The position numbers were made by a program, and so were the translations under genes. The notes beneath the pieces were generated by a model that worked only from the letters and a program-made list of their open reading frames with translations, did no database searches and was not told the DNA's origin. From assembly GCF_947488135.1 (NCBI RefSeq), contig NZ_CANKYW010000005.1, positions 124,001-188,000 of the forward strand: a stretch of DNA of 64,000 nt, in the 5' to 3' direction. Of the stretch, positions 11,161-64,000 are shown in pieces. Numbering within the stretch: the stretch's first letter is position 1; each line of letters starts with the position of its first letter. The stretch is from an uncultured Marivita sp. (lineage in GTDB: Bacteria > Pseudomonadota > Alphaproteobacteria > Rhodobacterales > Rhodobacteraceae).

Positions 11161-13386
11161 TCAGCCTTCGATCCGCGTCAGGTCGGCCACCTGCAAGCAG
11201 GTTTTGCGGATCGTGCTGAGCAGGTTCAACCGGTTGCGTCGCAGCAGGTCCTTGTCGGCATTGACCTGAACCGCCTCGAAGAACGCATCCACCGGCCCGC
11301 GCAAATCGGCCATCGCCGCCATCGCGGTTTCGAAATCCTGCGCTTTCATGGCCGGCGCGATCTTAGCCTCGGCCTTGGCCAGAGCGTCGAAAAGCGCGGT
11401 TTCGGCGGGGTCTTCCGCGAATTTCGGATCGGCACCGAAAGAGTATTCGACCCCGTCCTTCTCTTCGGCCTGGCTTAGGATGTTGTTGGCCCGCTTGAAG
11501 CCCTGAACGAGGTTCTCGCCGTCCTCGGTCTCGAGCACAGCCTGCAACGCCTTGGCCCGCTTGACCAAAAGCGCCAGATCATCATTGCCGTCCATTTCGA
11601 TACACGCGTCGATCACGTCATGCCGGATGCCCTGGTCGCGGAGATAGACCTTGAGACGGTCGTGGAAGAAGGACAGCAGATCGACCGATTTGTCGGGCAC
11701 TTCGTTCTGCATCGCATCCAGACCATCGGTTTTTTCCCCATTACGCCGCGCCTTGAGCGTACGATAGGCCGCGCCGAACACGCCGTGCTCTGCGATTTCA
11801 GAGATCAGGTCGGTGACATCATCGTCGCTCACCCCGTCGATCAGGTGCCCTTTGTGGCGGACAAGCTGCACGTCGATGAAACGATCGAGCGACACCTGAA
11901 GCCCGTTTTCCAGCACCAACCGGATCACCCCCAACGCTGCGCGGCGGAGCGCGAACGGGTCCTTCGATCCCGTGGGTTTCTCCTCAATCGCCCAGAACCC
12001 GGTCAACGTGTCGATCTTGTCGGCTAGCGCGACCGCGACGGACACGGGCGCGGAGGGCACGTCATCCGACGGTCCGAGCGGGGAATAATGCTCCTGACAG
12101 GCGACGCCGACCTCCGAAGGCAGACCGGCGGCATCGCTGTAGTACCGGCCCATGAGCCCCTGAAGCTCCGGGAATTCGTAGACCATCTCCGAGGCCAGAT
12201 CGGCCTTCGCCACGGTCGCGGCCTGCTCTGCCAGTTCGGCATCCGCCCCGACCACCGGGGCCAGTTCGCGCGCGAGGGCGGCGATACGTCCGATCCGGTC
12301 ACGCTGCGACCCCAGCTTGTTGTGGAAGGTCACGTTCGACAGGCTGTCCGTCCACGCGGTCAGACCCTGTTCCTTGGCCACCCGCAGATCGTTCTCCCAG
12401 AAGAACTTGGCATCCGCCAATCGCGCCGACAGCACCTTCTGGTTGCCCGCGAGGATCGTCGCGCCGTGATCGGCGGTCTCTCGGTTCGCCACGGTGACAA
12501 AGCGTTCGATCCGCCCGGACTTCGGATTGCGCACCGAAAAGAACTTCTGGTGCTCTTTCATCGAGGTCTGCAACACCTCCGGCGGCAGGTCCAGAAACTC
12601 CGATCCAATCGCTCCCATGAGCACGACCGGCCATTCGACAAGCCCCGCCACTTCGGCCAGAAGTCCCCTGTCTTCGACGACTTCGAGCCCGCTTGCGAAG
12701 GCCTGGTTGGTTGCGTCCTGCCAAATCGCCTCGGCCCGTTCACCTGCGTCGAGCACCACATGCGCGCGTTTCAGCTTGGCCTCGTACTCATCAAAGCCCG
12801 TGACATCGAACGCGCCGGGCGCCATGAAGCGGTGGCCTTCGGTCGTGCGCCCGGATTTGATCCCGTCTACGTCGAGCCGCACCACATCAGAGCCATCCTC
12901 GCGTGTCAGCACGCATAGGATGCGGTGCAGGGGCCGCACCCAGCGCAGGGAACCGGCGCCCCAGCGCATCGATTTGGGCCACGGGAAGTTGCGGATCGTG
13001 TCCTCGAGCACCTCGGCCACGATCTCTTCCGCCGACCGGCCGGGTTTCTCGATCACCGCATAGAACACGCGGCCTTTCTTCTCGTCCCGCTCGATCAGGT
13101 CGTCGCGGCGTACACCGGCCCCGCGCAAGAACCCTTCGATGGCCTTTTCCGGCGCATCGACGCGCGGGCCCTTGCGTTCTTCCTTGATGTCCGGCGATCG
13201 GTCGGTCAACCCGTCCACCCGCAACGCCAGACGGCGCGGCGTTGCATAGGCGACGGCCCCGGCATAGGTCAAACCGGCCTCGACCAGCCCGTTCGTCATC
13301 CGCGACTTCAGGTCGTCCGCCGCCTTGGCCTGCATCCGCGCCGGGATTTCCTCGGAAAAAAGCTCGATCAGAAGGTCGGGCATCAA
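11161..13386 (-). CDS. glyS: Glycyl-tRNA synthetase beta subunit
   Basis: MPDLLIELFSEEIPARMQAKAADDL..., full-length similarity to GlyS family. Confidence 0.95.
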   Translation of the reverse strand: MMPDLLIELFSEEIPARMQAKAADDLKSRMTNGLVEAGLTYAGAVAYATPRRLALRVDGLTDRSPDIKEERKGPRVDAPEKAIEGFLRGAGVRRDDLIERDEKKGRVFYAVIEKPGRSAEEIVAEVLEDTIRNFPWPKSMRWGAGSLRWVRPLHRILCVLTREDGSDVVRLDVDGIKSGRTTEGHRFMAPGAFDVTGFDEYEAKLKRAHVVLDAGERAEAIWQDATNQAFASGLEVVEDRGLLAEVAGLVEWPVVLMGAIGSEFLDLPPEVLQTSMKEHQKFFSVRNPKSGRIERFVTVANRETADHGATILAGNQKVLSARLADAKFFWENDLRVAKEQGLTAWTDSLSNVTFHNKLGSQRDRIGRIAALARELAPVVGADAELAEQAATVAKADLASEMVYEFPELQGLMGRYYSDAAGLPSEVGVACQEHYSPLGPSDDVPSAPVSVAVALADKIDTLTGFWAIEEKPTGSKDPFALRRAALGVIRLVLENGLQVSLDRFIDVQLVRHKGHLIDGVSDDDVTDLISEIAEHGVFGAAYRTLKARRNGEKTDGLDAMQNEVPDKSVDLLSFFHDRLKVYLRDQGIRHDVIDACIEMDGNDDLALLVKRAKALQAVLETEDGENLVQGFKRANNILSQAEEKDGVEYSFGADPKFAEDPAETALFDALAKAEAKIAPAMKAQDFETAMAAMADLRGPVDAFFEAVQVNADKDLLRRNRLNLLSTIRKTCLQVADLTRIEG

Positions 13387-41909: not shown

Positions 41910-42658
41910 TCCAGCCCTTCCAGGAAGCCGCGGATCGCGGCCGAGGTCTCGCGCGGCGTCTCCAGCAGGCCGAAATGGCCGGCGCCGGGGATCGTGTCGA
42001 ACTCGGCGCGGCCGCCGGCGTCGCGGATCGTCCCGGCGATGCCCATCAGCACGTCTGGCGGCGTGGACAGGTCGCCGGCATAGGCCAGGCACAGGGCGGG
42101 CGGGAGCGCGGGCGCGATCCGCCCGTAACCCTCGAAACTGGCCAGCGCCCGCCAGGCGGCGTCGAACCCCTCGGGCGTCATCTTCGCCAACGACGCGCGG
42201 GCGCGGTCGATGGCGGGTTCCGGCCCCGTCCGGCCGAACCAGCGTTGCACGGTGTGTTCGGTGACCGCCGCGACCGAGCCCCGGGACACGGCGCAGGCGC
42301 GTTCGGCGAAGACCGGAAGGCCCTCATGCGGCGTCGCTGCCAGGCAGACGCTGCGCGCATCGCTGCGGGCGGCCAGTTCCGCAGCCACCGCGCCGCCCAT
42401 CGAGAACCCCGCCAAGTGCCGCGCGCCGGTCTTCCGCATCGCGGCCTCGGCATCGTCCACCATCTGCGTAAGGCTCTCGGCGGAGGTGGCGGCGGCGACG
42501 CCGTGGCCACGCTGGTCGAAGCTCAGGACGCGCCGGCCGGGGCCGAGGTCCAGATCGGCGAAGAACGCCGCCTCCTGCCCCAGCGGATGCAGGCAAAGGA
42601 CGGCCTCCGGCCCCTCGCCCCAGCTCTGCAACTCGGTGTCGAACCCGTTCAGCCTCAT
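41906..42658 (-). CDS. Alpha/beta hydrolase
   Basis: GFSMGGAVAAELA nucleophile elbow, terminal 'GAGHFGLLETP'; ATG 42658, 4-nt overlap downstream. Confidence 0.87.
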   Translation of the reverse strand: MRLNGFDTELQSWGEGPEAVLCLHPLGQEAAFFADLDLGPGRRVLSFDQRGHGVAAATSAESLTQMVDDAEAAMRKTGARHLAGFSMGGAVAAELAARSDARSVCLAATPHEGLPVFAERACAVSRGSVAAVTEHTVQRWFGRTGPEPAIDRARASLAKMTPEGFDAAWRALASFEGYGRIAPALPPALCLAYAGDLSTPPDVLMGIAGTIRDAGGRAEFDTIPGAGHFGLLETPRETSAAIRGFLEGLE

Positions 42659-43869
42659 TTCAGGACGCCTGCCGCTTGCAATGTCTCGACCTCTCCGGCA
42701 CCCATTCCCAGCCAGTCCGACAGCACCTCGGTCGCGTCCCCGCCCAGGTCGGGCGGATAAGTGGCCGGCACCGGCACGCCCGGTCCCATCCGGATGGGCG
42801 AGCCCACGACCTCGATCGCCTGGCCATCCTCGTCCGCCATCGACACGACCATCTCGCGCCCCGAGCCGCGCGCGTCTTCCAGCGCCTCGGGCACGGTCTT
42901 GACCAGCGCGTTGGGCACGTCGTGCTCGGTCAGCCTCTCGGCCCAGTCGGCGGCGTCGCGCGCCATGAAGGCGGGTTCCAGCTCGGCCCAGAGCGCGGCC
43001 TTGTTGGCCAGGCGCAACCGGGCATCGGCGAACCGCGGGTCTTCCAGCAGATCGCCGCGGCCGAGCGCGGAGGCCAGGCCCGCCCACATTTTCTCGGTAT
43101 TGGCGGTGACCGCGATCTGTCGCCCGTCACCGGCGGTGAAGGCGCGGTAGGTGGGGATCGAATCGTGCTGCGCGCCCTGCGGCCCCGGTGTCGCGCCGCC
43201 GATCAGCGCATAGGCGCTTTGATAGCTCAGCATCGCAAGCTGGCAGTCTAGCATGCCCACATCCACGTGCCGGCCGGTGCCGGTGCGCGCCCGTTCCGCC
43301 AACGCGGCGTTGATCGCCACGGCGGCATAGAGCCCCGCCACCGTGTCGCCCGCCGGAATGCCCAGACGGACCGAGGGGCGGCCCGGTTCGCCGGTCAGCG
43401 ACATGACCCCCGACAGCGCCTGCACGATCATGTCATATGCGGGCCGCTTTGCCCAGGGACCGTCCAGGCCGAAGCCGGTGATCGAGGCCCAGATCAGGCC
43501 GGGATGCGCAGCGCGCAACCTGTCGATATCGAGCCCCAGCCGCGCCGGCACGCCGGGGCGGAAATTCTCGACCACCACATCCGATTCGCCCACCAGCCGG
43601 CGCACCAGCGCTTGGCCCTCATCCTGGCGCATGTCGACGCAGACCGAGCGCTTGGTGCGGTTGTTGGCGAGGAAATAGGCACTGTCCTCGCCCACGAAAT
43701 GCGGCGGGATGTGGCGTGAACTGTCGCCCGCGGGCGGCTCCACCTTCACGACCTCGGCGCCCAGATCGGCCAGAACCTGCGTGCAGAACGGACCCGACAG
43801 GAAGGTCGTCAGGTCGAGCACCCGGATCCCGTGAAGCGGCGGTGCGTCTTTCGCGGCGGTCTCGGTCAT
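42655..43869 (-). CDS. CaiB/BaiF-type (family III) CoA-transferase
   Basis: GIRVLDLTTFLSGPFCTQVLADLGAEVVKVEPPAGD..., 'YFLANNRTKRSVCVD'. Confidence 0.93.
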   Translation of the reverse strand: MTETAAKDAPPLHGIRVLDLTTFLSGPFCTQVLADLGAEVVKVEPPAGDSSRHIPPHFVGEDSAYFLANNRTKRSVCVDMRQDEGQALVRRLVGESDVVVENFRPGVPARLGLDIDRLRAAHPGLIWASITGFGLDGPWAKRPAYDMIVQALSGVMSLTGEPGRPSVRLGIPAGDTVAGLYAAVAINAALAERARTGTGRHVDVGMLDCQLAMLSYQSAYALIGGATPGPQGAQHDSIPTYRAFTAGDGRQIAVTANTEKMWAGLASALGRGDLLEDPRFADARLRLANKAALWAELEPAFMARDAADWAERLTEHDVPNALVKTVPEALEDARGSGREMVVSMADEDGQAIEVVGSPIRMGPGVPVPATYPPDLGGDATEVLSDWLGMGAGEVETLQAAGVLK

Positions 43870-44651
43870 GGTGCATGTCCCCCCAGCTGTGAGGTCAGAT
43901 CGGCCGCCGTGGCGGCGACCTCCGTTCCCAGGGCGCGCACGGGAATCTCGGGCGCGCGGGTTCTGGGCATCGTCATGCAGATGGTCCCGATCACCCGGCC
44001 CGGGCCGAAGACCGGCGCGGCGATACCCAGCGCGTCGGGCAGCTTTTCGCCATGACTGATGCAATATCCATCGGCCCGGATACGGGCCAGCTCTTCCGCC
44101 AGGGCGGCGGTATCGGGCAGCTCGGCTCCGGTCGCGGGCGACGCGCCCTCGGCGGCAAGGATGCGCGCGATGTCGGCCTCGGGCAGGTAAGCCAGCGCCG
44201 CCTTGCCGCTGGCGCCCCAGACCAGGCTCAGCGGAGTCTGCATGTCGATCCGGTAGAGCAGTTTCTTCTGCCCGTCGGCGCGTTCCATGAAGGCGATCCG
44301 GCCTTCAGGCATCAGGACCATGCCGTAAAGCACGGTTTCGTCGTAACGCTCGGCCAGGTCGGCGATCACACCGCGTGCCACCTGCGCGGGGGTCGTGCGC
44401 GCCGCCAGTCGATGCGCGACACGGTAGAATTCCGGCCCGATCCCGTAAGCCTGTCCGCGCGATTCGTATTGCGCGAACCCGCCCTCGACCAGAAGGTTCA
44501 ACAGCCGATGCGTGGTCGAGGGCGCAAGCCCAAGCTCGTCGGCCACGTGCCGGACCGATACCGGCCCGTCGGCATCCGCGAGACAGGCGATCAGGGTCAT
44601 CACCCGGTGCGCGGTGCCGGTTCCGGTCTTGCTGGTCGCCGGGTCGCTCAC
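43866..44651 (-). CDS. IclR-family transcriptional regulator (GTG start)
   Basis: N-terminal wHTH 'VMTLIACLADADGPVSVRHVADELGLAPSTTHRLLNLLVEGGFAQ' plus effector domain 'LSLVWGASGKAALAYLPE'. Confidence 0.92.
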   Translation of the reverse strand: MSDPATSKTGTGTAHRVMTLIACLADADGPVSVRHVADELGLAPSTTHRLLNLLVEGGFAQYESRGQAYGIGPEFYRVAHRLAARTTPAQVARGVIADLAERYDETVLYGMVLMPEGRIAFMERADGQKKLLYRIDMQTPLSLVWGASGKAALAYLPEADIARILAAEGASPATGAELPDTAALAEELARIRADGYCISHGEKLPDALGIAAPVFGPGRVIGTICMTMPRTRAPEIPVRALGTEVAATAADLTSQLGGHAP

Positions 44652-45796
44652 GCCGCGGCCTCGAGGATATGGATAGTGCAGGCGCCGTGATCCATGCCCG
44701 AGATGCCGCCACCGGTCACATGCGTCAGCGCCCGCCTTGCACCGTCGATCTGGCGCGCGCCGGCCTGGCCGGTCAGGTGCCAGAATGCCTCGACCGCCTG
44801 GGCCATGCCCGAGGCGCCCACCGGGTGCCCCTTGGCCAAAAGCCCGCCCGAGGGGTTCACGACCAGCCGCCCGCCATAGCTGGTAGCGCCGTCGCACAGC
44901 AGCTTCACGCTGTCGCCCCGGGGGCAAAGCCCCAGCGCCTCGTAATAGATCAGCTCGGCGATGGAAAAGGCATCGTGCAGCTCGACCATGTCGAGCGCGT
45001 CCGCGCCCATGCCGGCCTGCTCATAAGCCTCGGCGGCGGAATGAAAGGTGATCTCGGGTGTCAGCATGTCGCGAAACCCGGTGGTGGCCTTTCCCGAATG
45101 CAGAACCGAGGCGCGAATGGCGGCGCCCGGCAGGCCCAGCTCGCGGCGCTTGCGCTCCGAGACGACCACCGCCGCGGCGGCGCCGTCGCCCGTGGGGCAG
45201 CATTGCAGCAGCGTCAGCGGCTCGGCGATGGGGCGCGAGGCCATGACCTCCTCGACGGTGGTTTCCTTGCGGAACTGCGCGAAGGGATTGGCGGCGCCGT
45301 GGCGCCGGGCTTTGACCGATACCCCGGCCAGAAGCTCGGGCGTTTCGCCGCGTTCGTGCAGGTAGCGTCGCGCGCGCATGGCATAAAGCGCCGGCATGAC
45401 CATGCCGCGCGCGACCTCGGGGTCTTCCTCGACCAGCGGCAGTGTGCCGCCGCCGAACTGGGTCAGCTTGTCCACCCCGATGGCCAGCACGATGTCTGCG
45501 CGGCCCTCCGCGATATCGCGCGTCGCCAGGTGCAGCGCCGTGGCCCCGCCCGAACAGGCGTTGTCGGTGTTGACGACCGGCACGCCGCCGATGCCGATCT
45601 CCTTCACGATGCGTTGCCCGGTCAGCATGCCGCCGAAGGCATGGCCGCAGGTGACCGTCTGGATATCGCCCGGTTTCAGCCCGCAGGCGCGCAGCGCGGC
45701 GCGCACCGCCGGCACCGCCAGCCCGACATAGGAAGAGGTCTTGTGCTTGCCCATCGGAATCATGCCCGCGCCGATGATTGTGCCCAGATCGCTCAT
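44648..45796 (-). CDS. Thiolase-superfamily protein (SCP-x/lipid-transfer type)
   Basis: 'NTDNACSGGATALHLA', 'ELHDAFSIAELIYYEALG', 'NPSGGLLAKGHPVGASG'. Confidence 0.9.
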   Translation of the reverse strand: MSDLGTIIGAGMIPMGKHKTSSYVGLAVPAVRAALRACGLKPGDIQTVTCGHAFGGMLTGQRIVKEIGIGGVPVVNTDNACSGGATALHLATRDIAEGRADIVLAIGVDKLTQFGGGTLPLVEEDPEVARGMVMPALYAMRARRYLHERGETPELLAGVSVKARRHGAANPFAQFRKETTVEEVMASRPIAEPLTLLQCCPTGDGAAAAVVVSERKRRELGLPGAAIRASVLHSGKATTGFRDMLTPEITFHSAAEAYEQAGMGADALDMVELHDAFSIAELIYYEALGLCPRGDSVKLLCDGATSYGGRLVVNPSGGLLAKGHPVGASGMAQAVEAFWHLTGQAGARQIDGARRALTHVTGGGISGMDHGACTIHILEAAA

Positions 45797-46212
45797 GCCG
45801 GTTCGACCCACCACTCGGACCCTTCGGCGCGCAGCACCACCGGCAGGTCACAGGCCAGCGCGTCGGCGGGTGCACGGACATGCGCAAAGGCGCGCAATCC
45901 CGAGGGGAAATCGACATATCCCAGCGTGTAGGGCGTGGGTCGCGTGGCCGAGACGTGAATGGTCGAGAAGGAATACAGCACCGCCTCGGGGCCGAAAAGC
46001 GCGGGCTCCATGTCATAAGCGCCCGTCTCGGGACAGATGGGACGGGCCGGGAACGCCTCGACGCCCGAAGAGGCCGAGCGCGCGCCCCGCAGCATCACGG
46101 CGCCGTCCCGAACCACGAAATCGCCCTCGGGATCGGGCGCCAGATCGTCCATCGGCAGCACGGCGTCGTTCACCGCGTCGCCGGCCGGGGCTTGGGTCGG
46201 ATCGTCCGTCAT
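45793..46212 (-). CDS. OB-fold/DUF35-type partner protein
   Basis: 'FPARPICPETGAYDMEPALFGPEAVLYSFSTIHVSATRPTPYTLGYVDFPSGLRAFAHV' DUF35-like; adjacent to thiolase. Confidence 0.82.
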   Translation of the reverse strand: MTDDPTQAPAGDAVNDAVLPMDDLAPDPEGDFVVRDGAVMLRGARSASSGVEAFPARPICPETGAYDMEPALFGPEAVLYSFSTIHVSATRPTPYTLGYVDFPSGLRAFAHVRAPADALACDLPVVLRAEGSEWWVEPA

Positions 46213-46242: not shown

Positions 46243-46282
46243 TGTTCCGTTAATCGGAACGCCATTCCATTTTGGTTGACAG
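46243..46282 (+). promoter_or_regulatory. Putative IclR-type operator overlapping a TTGACA promoter
   Basis: TGTTCCGTTAATCGGAACGCCATTCCATTTTGGTTGACAG; contains GTTCCG-N5-CGGAAC; collinear with 63734-63773. Confidence 0.65.
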
Positions 46283-46390
46283 CTTTTCCGGAGTCAAGCT
46301 AGCGTTTGGCATTCGACCCAGAGAACGGGTCACCGGCCCGGCCGCAATCGCGCGATGCCGGGCCGGATCAAAATGGATGGGAGGACCGAA

Positions 46391-47446
46391 ATGGCCGGAT
46401 ACGGAATCAGCAGAACACTTGCGGCATTGGGCGCCGCGGTGACGATCGCCTGCGCGGCGAACGCACAGGACGCGGAGGAGGTCGAACTGAACCTCGCGGC
46501 GTTCTACCCCTCGACCCTGACGCAGCTGGGCGAGGGCGCCAAGCTCTTCGCCGACAGGGTCAACCTGATCGGGCAGGGCTCGGTGCAGGTCAATTTCTTC
46601 GAGCCGGGCGCTCTGGTGCCCTCGCTGGAGATCTTCGACGCGGTGGCATCGGGCTCGGTGGACATGGGCCATGCCTCTTCGGGGCTCTGGGCGTCCAAGA
46701 ACTCAGCCCTGGTGCTGTGGAACGCGTTTCCCTTCGGCCCCGCGGCGGGCGAATACCTCGCTTGGCTGCGCTATGGCGGCGGCGAGGAGCTGCGCAACGA
46801 ACTCTATCACCCGCTGGGCGTGCACGGCATCACCTGCGGTATCATCGCGCCCGAGGCGTCTGGCTGGTTCCGCGAGGAAATCACCGATCTTTCCCAGCTG
46901 GAAGGCATCAAGATGCGCTTTTTTGGACTGGGTGGAAAGGTGATGGAAAAACTGGGCGTCGAGGTGCAGCTTCTGGCCGGCGGCGACATCTATCCCGCGC
47001 TAGAACGCGGCACGATCGACGCTACCGAGTTCTCGATGCCTGCCATCGACCAAGGCGCGGGCCTCTACCAGATCGCCAAGCACTATTACTTTCCCGGATG
47101 GCACCAGCAAGCGACGCCGCATGACCTGATCGTCAATCTCGACGTGTGGAACGGACTGAGCGAGCAGCAGCAGGGGATCCTGGAGACCACCTGTGACGCG
47201 GTGACCGCCATTGAGTTCGCGCAGGGCGAGGCGATCCAGTTCGACGCGCTCCAAGAGATGCAGGAAGAAGGCGTCGAGTTGCACCAGTGGACCGACGCGC
47301 AACTGACCACCTTCGAAGAGAAGTGGCAGGAAGTGCTGGAAGAGGAAATCGCGGCGAACCCCGATTTCGAGCGGGCCTGGGAGAGCATCTCGGAGTTTCG
47401 CGAAAACTACGAGATCTGGTCCGAATACGGCTATCTCGACCGCTGA
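46391..47446 (+). CDS. TRAP transporter substrate-binding protein, DctP family
   Basis: Signal peptide then 'LAAFYPSTLTQLGEGAKLFADRVNLIGQGSVQVNFFEPGALVPSLEIFDAVASGSVDMGHASSG'. Confidence 0.92.
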   Translation: MAGYGISRTLAALGAAVTIACAANAQDAEEVELNLAAFYPSTLTQLGEGAKLFADRVNLIGQGSVQVNFFEPGALVPSLEIFDAVASGSVDMGHASSGLWASKNSALVLWNAFPFGPAAGEYLAWLRYGGGEELRNELYHPLGVHGITCGIIAPEASGWFREEITDLSQLEGIKMRFFGLGGKVMEKLGVEVQLLAGGDIYPALERGTIDATEFSMPAIDQGAGLYQIAKHYYFPGWHQQATPHDLIVNLDVWNGLSEQQQGILETTCDAVTAIEFAQGEAIQFDALQEMQEEGVELHQWTDAQLTTFEEKWQEVLEEEIAANPDFERAWESISEFRENYEIWSEYGYLDR

Positions 47447-47509
47447 CGACACGCCTGCCGCGCCTCGGTTCCGGGGCGCGGAACCCCAACTGACAAACGG
47501 CAGGCCCCC

Positions 47510-48067
47510 ATGACACTCGCCTTGCGCCTGAGCCGGCTGATCGACCGGCTTCTCGCCTTCTTCGCCGCCCTGGGCGGCTGGTGCATCGTCGCGCTGACGC
47601 TGGTGGTCTGCTACGATGTGGTGACCCGCTATTTCGGCGTGCCGAAAATCTTCGGCCTCACCTCCACCATCCTCCAGGAAGGCGAGTACTGGCTGCACAG
47701 CTATGCCATCGTGCTGGCCGTGGGCGCGGCCTATATCCGCCAGCAGCACGTGCGCATCGACCTGATCCGCGAAGGCCGGACGGACAAGACGAAATACTGG
47801 ATCGAGGCGATCGGCTGCGCGGTCATGCTGATCCCCTACGCGATCCTGGGGGCCTGGCTGTCCTACCCTTACGCCTACCGCGCCTTTTCCATCGGCGAGG
47901 GGTCGCGGTCGGGCAACGGCATCGACCAGGTCTGGGTGCTGAAATCGGGCCTCGTAATCCTGTTCGTCCTGATCGGGCTGGCCGGGCTGTCGGTCTTCAT
48001 CAAGGCGGTTGCCGGCATCGCCGGCCGCCTGCCGCAGTCGCAGCGCCACGAGGTCATCGATGGCTGA
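47510..48067 (+). CDS. TRAP transporter small permease, DctQ family
   Basis: Four TM helices; position between P and M subunits. Confidence 0.88.
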   Translation: MTLALRLSRLIDRLLAFFAALGGWCIVALTLVVCYDVVTRYFGVPKIFGLTSTILQEGEYWLHSYAIVLAVGAAYIRQQHVRIDLIREGRTDKTKYWIEAIGCAVMLIPYAILGAWLSYPYAYRAFSIGEGSRSGNGIDQVWVLKSGLVILFVLIGLAGLSVFIKAVAGIAGRLPQSQRHEVIDG

Positions 48068-57602: not shown

Positions 57603-58610
57603 TCAGTTGGTCAGCCCGATCGAGGCGAGAAAGGCCTCGTGGCTGTCGACGATCGCCTGTGCATCGGCGCTCTTCGCGCCCCAGTCCGCCCACACCTCGG
57701 TCGTCATGTCGCGGAACGCCTTCGCGTCCTCCGGGCCGAACTCGATGAAGGTCACGCCCATCTCTTCCCTGGCCCGCGCTTCGGCGGCATCGTCTTCGGT
57801 GCTCAGCGTCTGCTTGAGACTTTCGGACATCGCGTTGCAGGCGGCCTCGAAGGCGGCCTGGTTCTCGGCCGAGAGGCTGTCCCACTTGGCCTTCGATACG
57901 CTCATCTCGGTCACGGCCATCGAATGGCGCGCCAGCACCGAGTATTTCGCCTGGTTATGCATCCCCAACGCGACGTTGAGCGCGACATTGGCGAGGTCGG
58001 TGGCATCCAGCACGCCGGTCTCCATCGCCGTCACGCTCTCACCGACACCCATCGTGACCAGCGACGCGCCGGCCCGGCTCAGCAGATCGGAGGCAAGCCC
58101 CCCCGGCGCGCGCATCTTCAGCCCTTCGAGGTCGGCGACACCGTTGATCTCGACTTTCGAGGGGATCTGCTCGGGCGGCCAGTATATCGGGCAAACCATG
58201 TGCATGTCGTACTTGTCGTAGAGCGCGCGGGCGAGTTCGAGCCCGCCGCCTTCGGTGAACCAGCGGTCGCGCGTGGCGCTGTCGGGGTAGGCGGCAAGCG
58301 TATCGCCCAGCACGCCCATCGCGGGATCCTTGCCGGCGAAATAGCTCGGCGCGGTGTATTGACCGTCAAGCAGCCCGTTCTGGATCGCCTCGATGGTCTC
58401 ACCCGCGCCCACGACGGCACCGCCGGGAAGAACCTCGATCTGGATCGCACCGTCCGTGTCGGCGGCCAATTGCTCCGCCATCGCCTCGAACGCCTTGGTC
58501 GTTGACGCATTGGCGCCGAGAAACGTCTGCATCTTGAAGCTCTCCGCACTGGCCCCTCCGGCCAGAAGTGCTGCGGCGGCAATGCCCGCGAGTGAGTGGT
58601 GAAGTTTCAT
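57603..58610 (-). CDS. TRAP transporter substrate-binding protein, DctP family
   Basis: MKLHHSLAGIAAAALLAGGASAESFKMQTFLGANASTTKAFEAMAEQLAADTDGAIQIEVLPGGAVVGAGETIEAIQNGLLDG. Confidence 0.93.
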   Translation of the reverse strand: MKLHHSLAGIAAAALLAGGASAESFKMQTFLGANASTTKAFEAMAEQLAADTDGAIQIEVLPGGAVVGAGETIEAIQNGLLDGQYTAPSYFAGKDPAMGVLGDTLAAYPDSATRDRWFTEGGGLELARALYDKYDMHMVCPIYWPPEQIPSKVEINGVADLEGLKMRAPGGLASDLLSRAGASLVTMGVGESVTAMETGVLDATDLANVALNVALGMHNQAKYSVLARHSMAVTEMSVSKAKWDSLSAENQAAFEAACNAMSESLKQTLSTEDDAAEARAREEMGVTFIEFGPEDAKAFRDMTTEVWADWGAKSADAQAIVDSHEAFLASIGLTN

Positions 58611-61016: not shown

Positions 61017-62551
61017 GGACCGTTCAAAACCACGGGGTAAAAGCCAGAATAAGAGATAATCTTGGTCTCCATAGATCATTGCTGTGGAGGCGCAAATGCA
61101 TTGGCGCATTACTTTGGAAGCCGTTGACCCGATTGGGGATGAATATCGCAAGGAGTTCATGATCGAGAAGAATCTTGACGGCCTGGCTGGCGGGAAGCTG
61201 GGCTGCTCGATTGAAGACGGTAAGGCGATCATGAAAGAGGTTCAGAAGATCATTGTCGAGCGGTAGTTGGACCTTTGGGTTCGCTTCTGCCGGGCGTGTC
61301 CAACCTGCGAGGGACTGCTGCCGATCAAGGATTACAACCAGAGAAATATACTAACTGTCTTTGGTGAAATACCTGTGCGCTTCCCTCGCTTGATGGTCTG
61401 CCAGAAGTGCAATCCGGCATGTTGTTTCACCTTTTCCCCTGCGGCCGATATTTGCAAGGACCGCGCCACGCCCGAACTGTTGGAGCTTTCCGCAAAACTG
61501 GGCGCGAAATTCTCATATCGTGAAGCATCAGACCTGTTGGCAACGTTCTTGCCCGATCAATCGGCGCGAACCTTCACTACGCTTCGCAACCGAACCTTGG
61601 CTATGGGCAAGCGGATCGAAGAGGCTGAAAGGCATCAGAGCTGGTTCGAAAACCTGAACTATCCGGATCGAACGCAGTACGAGCTTGCGCTTGTGGGCGA
61701 TCCGGCACGTGAATTTGTTTTCAATGTGGATACGGCGCACATTCCAATGCTCAAGCGGTATGGTGGTCGAACGTTTGAAGCCGTTGTAGGCCACTGTGGG
61801 CGCGGCGGAAGAGGTGATCCGCCGGGACCCATCTTTGCTTTTGAAGGTACGCATCCAAGGGAATTAAGGGCGATGGCGGCTCTGGCACTCAAAAGGCAAG
61901 GCTACGCTGACCAGGGTGAAATCACCGTCATTTCGGACGGGGCAGAATGTCTGAAGTGCTTAACGGGCATGCTTCCACAACCGGTGAACCACATCCTCGA
62001 CTGGTTTCACATTTCAATGAAGATACAGCCGCTGGTCCAGCTCGGAGCAACGGCCCCGAAGCACCTCTTGAGCTTCGAGGGGCGTATGGAACGAATACGG
62101 TGGCGATTGTGGAACGGGCAAGCTGGTCGAGCCTTGTCCTTGATCGCAACGGTTCGACGAGATTTGTCCAGAGACCCGGTGCCAAGCATTTGGGCGCACC
62201 GCGCCGACAAATTGCTCGAAACCCTGCAAATCTACATAACAAGAAACAAGGGATCGGTGGTCAACTATGCCGAGCGGTATCGCGATGGGAAGCGCGTTTC
62301 GACCGCACCGGCTGAGGCGAGCGTCAACAGGCTTGTCGCCAAGCGATTTGTGAAAAAGCAACAAATGCGATGGTCACGCACCGGAGCGCATTACCTGCTG
62401 AAAGTCCGGGCATCAGTGCTGAACGGAGATCTGTCTGACCGAACGAAATATGAAGCGCCAAAACAGCCTATCCCGGGCAACATTGCGAGATTTATTAGCC
62501 CTACACCACCCTTGCTCAAGGTGGCCTGACCCCACAGTTTTGAACGGTCCC
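61016..62551 (+). mobile_element. ISKra4-like insertion sequence
   Basis: Terminal inverted repeats GGGACCGTTCAAAACCACGGGGT (61016-61038) and ACCCCACAGTTTTGAACGGTCCC (62529-62551), 20/23 matching, flanking a transposase. Confidence 0.85.
61084..62529 (+). pseudogene. ISKra4-family-like transposase with in-frame TAG at 61264-61266
   Basis: ORFs 61084-61266 and 61267-62529 are in the same frame: ...GKAIMKEVQKIIVER*LDLWVRFCRACPTCEGLLPIKDYNQRNILTVFGEIPVRFPRLM... Confidence 0.8.
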
Positions 62552-62833
62552 GGCGAGGTCGCTCCGTTTCTCGCGATGGATCGCACGACACTGACCGCCG
62601 CGCTCAAGCCACTGACGCGGAAGGGTCTGGTGGAGATCGTGCCGGACAAGACGGACGCGCGGGCGCGCCGCCTCGCGCTGACCGAGAAGGGGCATGCGCT
62701 GTTGACCGCGTCGCTGCCGGTCTGGCGTGCCGAACACGATGCCGTCGATGCGCTGCTTCTCGCGCTCGAAGGCGCGCTTGATCTCGACGATCTGAGGGAG
62801 GGAATCGGCAATACAGCTATACCGGTGCTCTAA
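62552..62833 (+). pseudogene. 3' fragment of a MarR-family regulator truncated by the IS
   Basis: 'GEVAPFLAMDRTTLTAALKPLTRKGLVEIVPDKTDARARRLALTEKGHALL' = recognition helix and wing of MarR; N-terminal half absent upstream of the IS. Confidence 0.75.
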
Positions 62834-63733: not shown

Positions 63734-63773
63734 TGTTCCACTCAATGGAACAATGTTCCGAAAGTGTTGACAG
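63734..63773 (+). promoter_or_regulatory. Putative IclR-type operator overlapping a TTGACA promoter
   Basis: TGTTCCACTCAATGGAACAATGTTCCGAAAGTGTTGACAG; collinear with 46243-46282. Confidence 0.65.
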
Positions 63774-63842: not shown

Positions 63843-64000
63843 ATGACGAAGACAGCACTTTCGGTTGCGTTCGTTGCGGGTGCGGTTCTTGCAACGGCAG
63901 CATCGGCGCAGTCCGCCGAAGAACCGATGGAATTGACGTTTCACACAATCATGGTTGCCGAGGATCCGATCGCGCAATGCGCACGGACCGTGCTCGCCCC
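63843..64000 (+). CDS. TRAP transporter substrate-binding protein, DctP family (partial, runs off window)
   Basis: MTKTALSVAFVAGAVLATAASAQSAEEPMELTFHTIMVAEDPIAQCARTVLA...; signal peptide and DctP-like N-terminus. Confidence 0.75.
   Translation, partial: MTKTALSVAFVAGAVLATAASAQSAEEPMELTFHTIMVAEDPIAQCARTVLA

Follow-up and report, generated by a model that had tools for sequence, protein, structure and literature searches.

Two TRAP transporter promoters of an uncultured Marivita sp. share a probable IclR operator

Two promoters lying 17.5 kb apart in an uncultured Marivita sp. (Rhodobacteraceae), each in front of a TRAP transporter gene, carry palindromic sites of one design, and the two are very probably operators of a single IclR-family regulator encoded next to the first of them, which would regulate its own operon as well as the transporters TRAP-1 and TRAP-3, most likely as a repressor. 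We analyzed a stretch of 64,000 nt (the window; contig NZ_CANKYW010000005.1, positions 124,001-188,000, forward strand) and refer to the operator near 46 kb as p1 and to that near 63.7 kb as p2. A sequence-only reading of this DNA had singled out the 40-mers at 46243-46282 and 63734-63773 as a gapless pair sharing four blocks at matching spacing, each preceding a dctP gene; a direct check of the sequence confirmed the alignment, and both sites do lie upstream of dctP genes (46355/46391 and 63843). The 40-mers are identical at 25/40 positions, with 22 of the 25 falling in the blocks TGTTCC, GGAAC, TTCC and TTGACAG. The two sites and their surroundings comprise the following features:

46245-46259, + strand: p1, main palindrome TTCCGTTAATCGGAA, scoring 18.8 bits with a matrix made from the sites of relatives alone
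46265-46279, + strand: p1, degenerate second tandem copy TTCCATTTTGGTTGA, 20 bp after the first copy
46276-46305, + strand: predicted dctP1 promoter (sequence match only), -35 TTGACA at 46276-46281, spacer 18, -10-like TAGCGT at 46300-46305
46269-46297, - strand: predicted divergent promoter of the iclR operon (sequence match), -35 TTGACT at 46297-46292, spacer 17, -10 CAAAAT at 46274-46269
46391-47446, + strand: dctP1, TRAP solute-binding protein (PF03480); the ORF opens at 46355
47510-48067: dctQ1, then dctM1, to 49514 (from the ORF table)
63736-63750, + strand: p2, main palindrome TTCCACTCAATGGAA, 22.2 bits with the relatives-only matrix
63754-63772, + strand: p2, third box TGTTCC (63754-63759) and -35 TTGACA (63767-63772)
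63843-64000, + strand: start of dctP3, interrupted about 200 bp in, beyond the window end

Written as a 17-mer of the form GTTCC-N7-GGAAC, p1 spans 46244-46260. Its second copy keeps only the left half, the third box TTCC, and what remains of the right half is the dctP1 -35 hexamer TTGACA itself (46276-46281); this copy overlaps the dctP1 -35 as well as the divergent operon's -10. On the opposite strand, the p1 operator covers the -10 and start region of the predicted promoter of the OB-thiolase-iclR-CaiB operon, and its two copies begin 18 and 38 bp past the start of the divergent -35, offsets that are identical in the relative G098 (L023). Transcription is predicted to begin about 7 bp past 46305 and 63795 on the dctP sides and, on the minus strand, close to 46262. 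Since p1 overlaps the predicted iclR-operon promoter, autoregulation of this operon from p1 is to be expected, and one site could serve both directions. At p2, the palindrome sits within perfect palindrome ends, TGTTCC-N7-GGAACA (63734-63752), the boxes alternate in direction (TGTTCC, GGAACA, TGTTCC), and the layout repeats the dctP side of the p1 layout. Both dctP genes encode DctP proteins by profile: dctP1, for which we prefer the ATG at 46391 with GGAGG upstream as the start, scored 156 bits for PF03480, and the dctP3 fragment scored 110.3 bits for NF037995 (cut-off 50). Between dctP1 and dctQ1 lies a GC-rich hairpin, GTTCCGGGGCGCGGAAC (47468-47484; 7.5 bits with the matrix), which is probably an mRNA element inside the TRAP operon and not an operator.

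The regulator gene to which the sequence-only reading had drawn attention is real: its product exceeded the cut-offs of both Pfam domains, with 49.6 bits for HTH_IclR (PF09339; cut-off 22, E=3e-13) and 66.2 bits for IclR_C (PF01614; cut-off 24, E=4e-18). It belongs to an operon with the order OB-fold, thiolase, iclR, CaiB, alpha/beta hydrolase, SDR and type II dehydroquinase-like, and these genes recur as a conserved set in a Granulosicoccus contig (L018) and in two further genomes from its family (L019, genome G186; L020, genome G098). The first four genes are:

45793-46212, - strand: first gene of the operon, OB-fold protein (ChsH2 C-terminal-like, PF01796), kept in L018-L020 and annotated in Mycobacterium branderi
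44648-45814, - strand: thiolase (PF22691/PF00108), 71-74% identical in L018, L019 and L020
43866-44651, - strand: iclR (PF09339, PF01614), proposed binder of p1 and p2, recognition helix LAPSTTHRLLNLL
42655-43875, - strand: CaiB/CoA-transferase III (PF02515), downstream of iclR, 64-69% identical in L018-L020

The IclR proteins of these three relatives are about 46% identical to that of the window, and a TRAP transporter is encoded downstream of the iclR operon in both L019 and L020. A Mycobacterium branderi plasmid (L073) likewise groups genes for an OB-fold protein, thiolase, IclR and CoA transferase. Scans for iclR orthologues across the family and phylum matched 5/199 genomes (the Marivita genome included), 1/399 and 1/17 (only the Marivita genome in both); because the matches were few, the operator footprint is limited to six loci. 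Each proteobacterial relative carries two complete 15-bp copies of TTCC-N7-GGAA, 20 bp apart, and M. branderi a three-box site:

L018 (Granulosicoccus), tandem upstream of the operon: TTCTACTCAGCAGAA-CATGA-TTCCACTCAGCGGAA
L019 (G186), tandem upstream of the operon: TATCACTCAGCGGGA-TGCGT-TTCCGTTGATCGGAA
L021 (more distant), tandem upstream of iclR: TTTCATCTAGCGGAA-GACAA-TTCCGGTGAATGGAA
L023 (G098), tandem upstream of the operon: TTCCATTAATTGGAA-TTATA-TCCTATTGAATGGAA
L073 (M. branderi), three-box site before a neighbouring gene, not the operon itself: TTCC-N7-GGAACATATGTTCC

The relatives' sites were first noticed through their TTCC-N7-GGAA core, and the independent support they lend is confined to their inner bases, their 20-bp spacing and where they lie. 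In both window sites the second copy survives as its left half, at exactly 20 bp, whereas the relatives have a complete second palindrome at this distance. The four blocks and their spacing were borne out as the sequence-only reading had described them, with one refinement: the third TTCC half-site plus TTGACA is best taken, in view of the identical spacing in the relatives' complete tandem pairs, for a degenerate second copy of the tandem operator or part of a three-box site, and not for a separate element. A further tandem pair occurs in G098 (L020 15866-15900) just before a gene for a LivK-type substrate-binding protein, about 6 kb from iclR, and this gene is likely a further regulon member there. 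Around a 33% identical IclR in G153, a different tandem motif recurs three times (L022 10528, 15934 and 17844), with second copies TTCTGCTTAAAGGAA, TTCTACCTAAAGGAA and TCCCGTTATAAGGAA 21 bp after the first; these motifs are probably operators of that IclR.

The GTTCC/GGAAC architecture had been said to resemble IclR operators, and the comparison with published sites bore this out: p1 and p2 each show 1 mismatch in 17 to the consensus of the group 1 subgroup GTT-11-AAC, GTTYCRYW3RYGRAAC (Suvorova and Gelfand 2021, PMC8222616), and the M. branderi site shows 0. A site of this group is conserved at the orthologous iclR-operon promoters in L018, L019 and L023, and is present also in L021 and, at the neighbouring gene, in L073. 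Published tandem IclR sites have 18-22 bp between centres (PMC8222616), as do the relatives' sites with centres 20 bp apart, whereas in the window the tandem's second copy amounts to a half-site abutting or overlapping the -35. Compared to the group 2 consensus, TGRAACAN1-2TGTTYCA (PMC8222616), the middle and third boxes of p2 (TGGAACA-A-TGTTCCG) have 1 mismatch in 14, whereas p1 matches weakly, with 4 mismatches in 14. By this match of its second and third boxes, p2 is a three-box site as in PcaU, one of 32 orthologous groups with such sites (PMC8222616), whereas the proteobacterial relatives carry complete tandem palindromes instead. GenR of Corynebacterium glutamicum, with ATTCC-N7(5)-GGAAT (Table 1, PMC8222616), has the same TTCC-N7-GGAA core but belongs to a different pathway and is likened here by its published motif alone. 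DctPQM genes are also among the known IclR-controlled genes (PMC8222616). It is well supported, then, that p1 and p2 are a new example of a site class, a tandem or three-box layout and a type of target that have already been published.

What is observed are the sequences, their spacing, their genome-wide uniqueness and their conservation in relatives; binding, promoter use, ligand and sign of regulation are inferred, as follows. One IclR dimer would occupy the 15-bp palindrome TTCC-N7-GGAA, and a second dimer, or a three-box mode of IclR, would extend to the next TTCC box, 20 bp away. Because the second copies in the window are degenerate, scoring poorly with the relatives-only matrix (-1.7 bits for p1, and -8.7 bits), cooperative binding of two dimers appears less certain here than in the relatives. 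Bound IclR would cover or abut the TRAP-operon -35 TTGACA and, at 46 kb, would also cover the -10 and start of the OB-thiolase-iclR-CaiB operon; from p1, the regulator would control itself, its own catabolic operon and TRAP-1, and at 63.7 kb a copied arrangement would have brought TRAP-3 into the regulon. Recent duplication of a promoter as the cause of the likeness was rejected, as the flanks and inner bases of p1 and p2 differ by eye. The most likely effect would be repression, lifted by a pathway intermediate or substrate, and our guess at the ligand would be an acid or a CoA ester from the pathway that the operon encodes. Repression appears likely because the window sites abut the dctP -35 and the relatives' tandems lie over or after the predicted -10: in L018, L019, L021 and L023, the first operator copy follows a -35-like hexamer TTGAC(A/T/G) by 18-30 bp, and the tandem covers or directly follows the predicted -10, a repressor-like position.

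It is quite conceivable, although we would not call it probable, that IclR activates the dctP promoters while repressing its own divergent operon. PcaU and PobR act as activators. The centre of the palindrome is some 60 bp upstream of the predicted start at each dctP promoter, with the third box directly against the -35, a geometry that would suit an activator. The named NCBIfam models nearest to the window IclR are BhcR (NF045644) and PcaR/PcaU/PobR (TIGR02431), and of these PcaU needs a three-box site (PMC8222616); at 114.8 bits (cut-off 350) and 73.3 bits (cut-off 284.75), respectively, the window IclR falls far below both cut-offs and is a member of neither. However, both promoters have a perfect TTGACA as their -35 box, and such boxes as a rule require no activator, and the sites in the four proteobacterial relatives occupy the repressor-like positions described above. 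A more elaborate arrangement, which strikes us as unlikely, would have the -35 of both dctP promoters built into the second half of the tandem operator, with a complete tandem acting on the regulator's own operon and a three-box site on the transporters, a different dimer arrangement and an opposite effect on the two sides of a single site.

Under the preferred model of a common repressor, p2 would be bound by the same IclR as p1. Of 18 HTH_IclR matches in the genome, only 3 were strong (47-54 bits, the others at most 35 bits): the window IclR and one protein each on contigs C4 and C3. The recognition helix of the window IclR, LAPSTTHRLL, conforms to a pattern, L(A/P)PSTxHRLL, that it shares with the proteobacterial relatives (LAPSTVHRLL in L018 and L019, LAPSTAHRLL in L020, LPPSTVHRLL in L021), the helix of the M. 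branderi protein (LPVSSVHRLL) being less close. The pattern is absent from both paralogues (C4, MPKATLYRFV; C3, QSPATVYRVL), and neither paralogue gene has a strong p1/p2-like site upstream. As the helix is shared with the relatives and not with the paralogues, the window IclR appears to be the best candidate binder for p2 as well. We consider it improbable that p1 belongs to the neighbouring IclR and p2 to another one, either one of these two paralogues or a regulator lost in an IS rearrangement, with the likeness of the sites reflecting their motif class. IclR-family motifs within one class do resemble each other (PMC8222616), insertion sequences lie on both sides of TRAP-3, and the C4 paralogue gene is itself preceded by a tandem pair 20 bp apart (TTCCATTATTCGAAA / TTTTGCATATTGAAA). 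Against the preferred model, the search for close dctP3 relatives with which to footprint p2 gave only 35-40% homologues, no convincing conserved upstream site was seen at the homologue loci L075, L076 and L060, and TRAP-3 homologues (38-40%) adjoin GntR genes. Yet p2 suits the relatives' matrix better than p1 does (22.2 vs 18.8 bits), the paralogue helices differ as described, and no IclR gene was found within the 13 kb read to the right of p2. Together, the relatives' operators, the relatives-only matrix and the recognition helix point to one regulon controlling the two transport loci, as the sequence-only reading had proposed.

The TRAP-3 locus itself is interrupted by an IS3-family element inserted in dctP3 (L011 1042-2367; 64042-65367 on the window scale), with inverted ends TGAACCGCCCCGGGTTTACCGGAGAGT and a 3-bp target duplication, CCG. 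Across the empty site the dctP3 reading frame would run on, and the remainder of dctP3, dctQ3 and dctM3 then follow; because of this insertion, the strain's second TRAP locus has probably lost its function. DctM3 is 38% identical (206-222 bits) to the DctM proteins downstream of the relatives' iclR operons, compared to 25-27% (70-83 bits) for DctM1, which would fit, without proving, an old link between the TRAP-3 transporter type and this IclR. Two different ISKra4-family transposase genes flank TRAP-3 (61267-62529 and L011 7029-8291), which suggests that the region was shaped by insertion sequences. A MarR-like reading frame (62450-62833) and the ISKra4 transposase ORF overlap at the 3' end of the latter, and the insertion may have replaced the start of the former.

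The composite pattern TTCC-N7-GGAA-N5-TTCC-N7-TTGACA had 2 exact matches in the window, at 46245 and 63736, and occurred in 0/100 dinucleotide shuffles, even with up to 2 mismatches. A genome scan of the kind that the sequence-only reading had suggested returned p1 and p2 as the only exact matches in 4.47 Mb; none was found with 1 or 2 mismatches across the whole genome, and 3 sites had 3 mismatches. The matrix, which was built from the proteobacterial relatives' sites only and included no window site, ranked p2 first and p1 second over the window, with the third best at 13.1 bits, and about 0.003 matches of at least 18.8 bits are expected per 64 kb. When the 26 genome sites that differ from TTCCRNTNANYGGAA at no more than one position were ranked, p2 again came first and p1 second. 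What is exceptional about p1 and p2 is their spacing pattern rather than overall 40-mer identity, which is modest on its own: the best other window 40-mer, at 12410, matches the first at 24/40 positions. The bare palindrome GTTCC-N7-GGAAC showed no enrichment across the genome (10 sites against 20 in the control), and most of its other copies have GC-rich centres. These last figures speak for a chance likeness, or for a common promoter element without a shared regulator, a reading that is highly improbable and has been largely refuted by the genome-wide uniqueness of the composite pattern and by the ranking of p1 and p2 as the top two sites of a matrix trained on other species.

Two other exact copies of TTCCRNTNANYGGAA were rejected as regulon members. 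One, at C2:522584 (G000, L045 1501-1515; 16.8 bits), reads TTCCAGTGACTGGAA, which we take to resemble a MerR/CueR-type operator, and stands in front of a short ORF with a beginning suggestive of a metal-binding chaperone; the other, at C24:2028, sits inside an ORF. The upstream region of a Salipiger abyssi IclR gene (35% identical, adjoining a TRAP operon) contained no p1/p2-type site, and the promoter of the other TRAP operon of the window (dctP 57603-58610, minus strand) had no site above 13.1 bits.

These findings leave the general view of IclR regulation unchanged, and offer a concrete candidate operator, with its regulon, for an IclR subfamily that is uncharacterised. The operon of this subfamily, with OB-fold, thiolase, iclR and CaiB genes, occurs in Rhodobacterales relatives and as far afield as Granulosicoccus and a plasmid of a mycobacterium. 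The proposed regulon would tie the catabolic pathway of the iclR operon to its transporters, and in TRAP-3 it would include a member in decay, with the p2 operator intact and the transporter gene interrupted.
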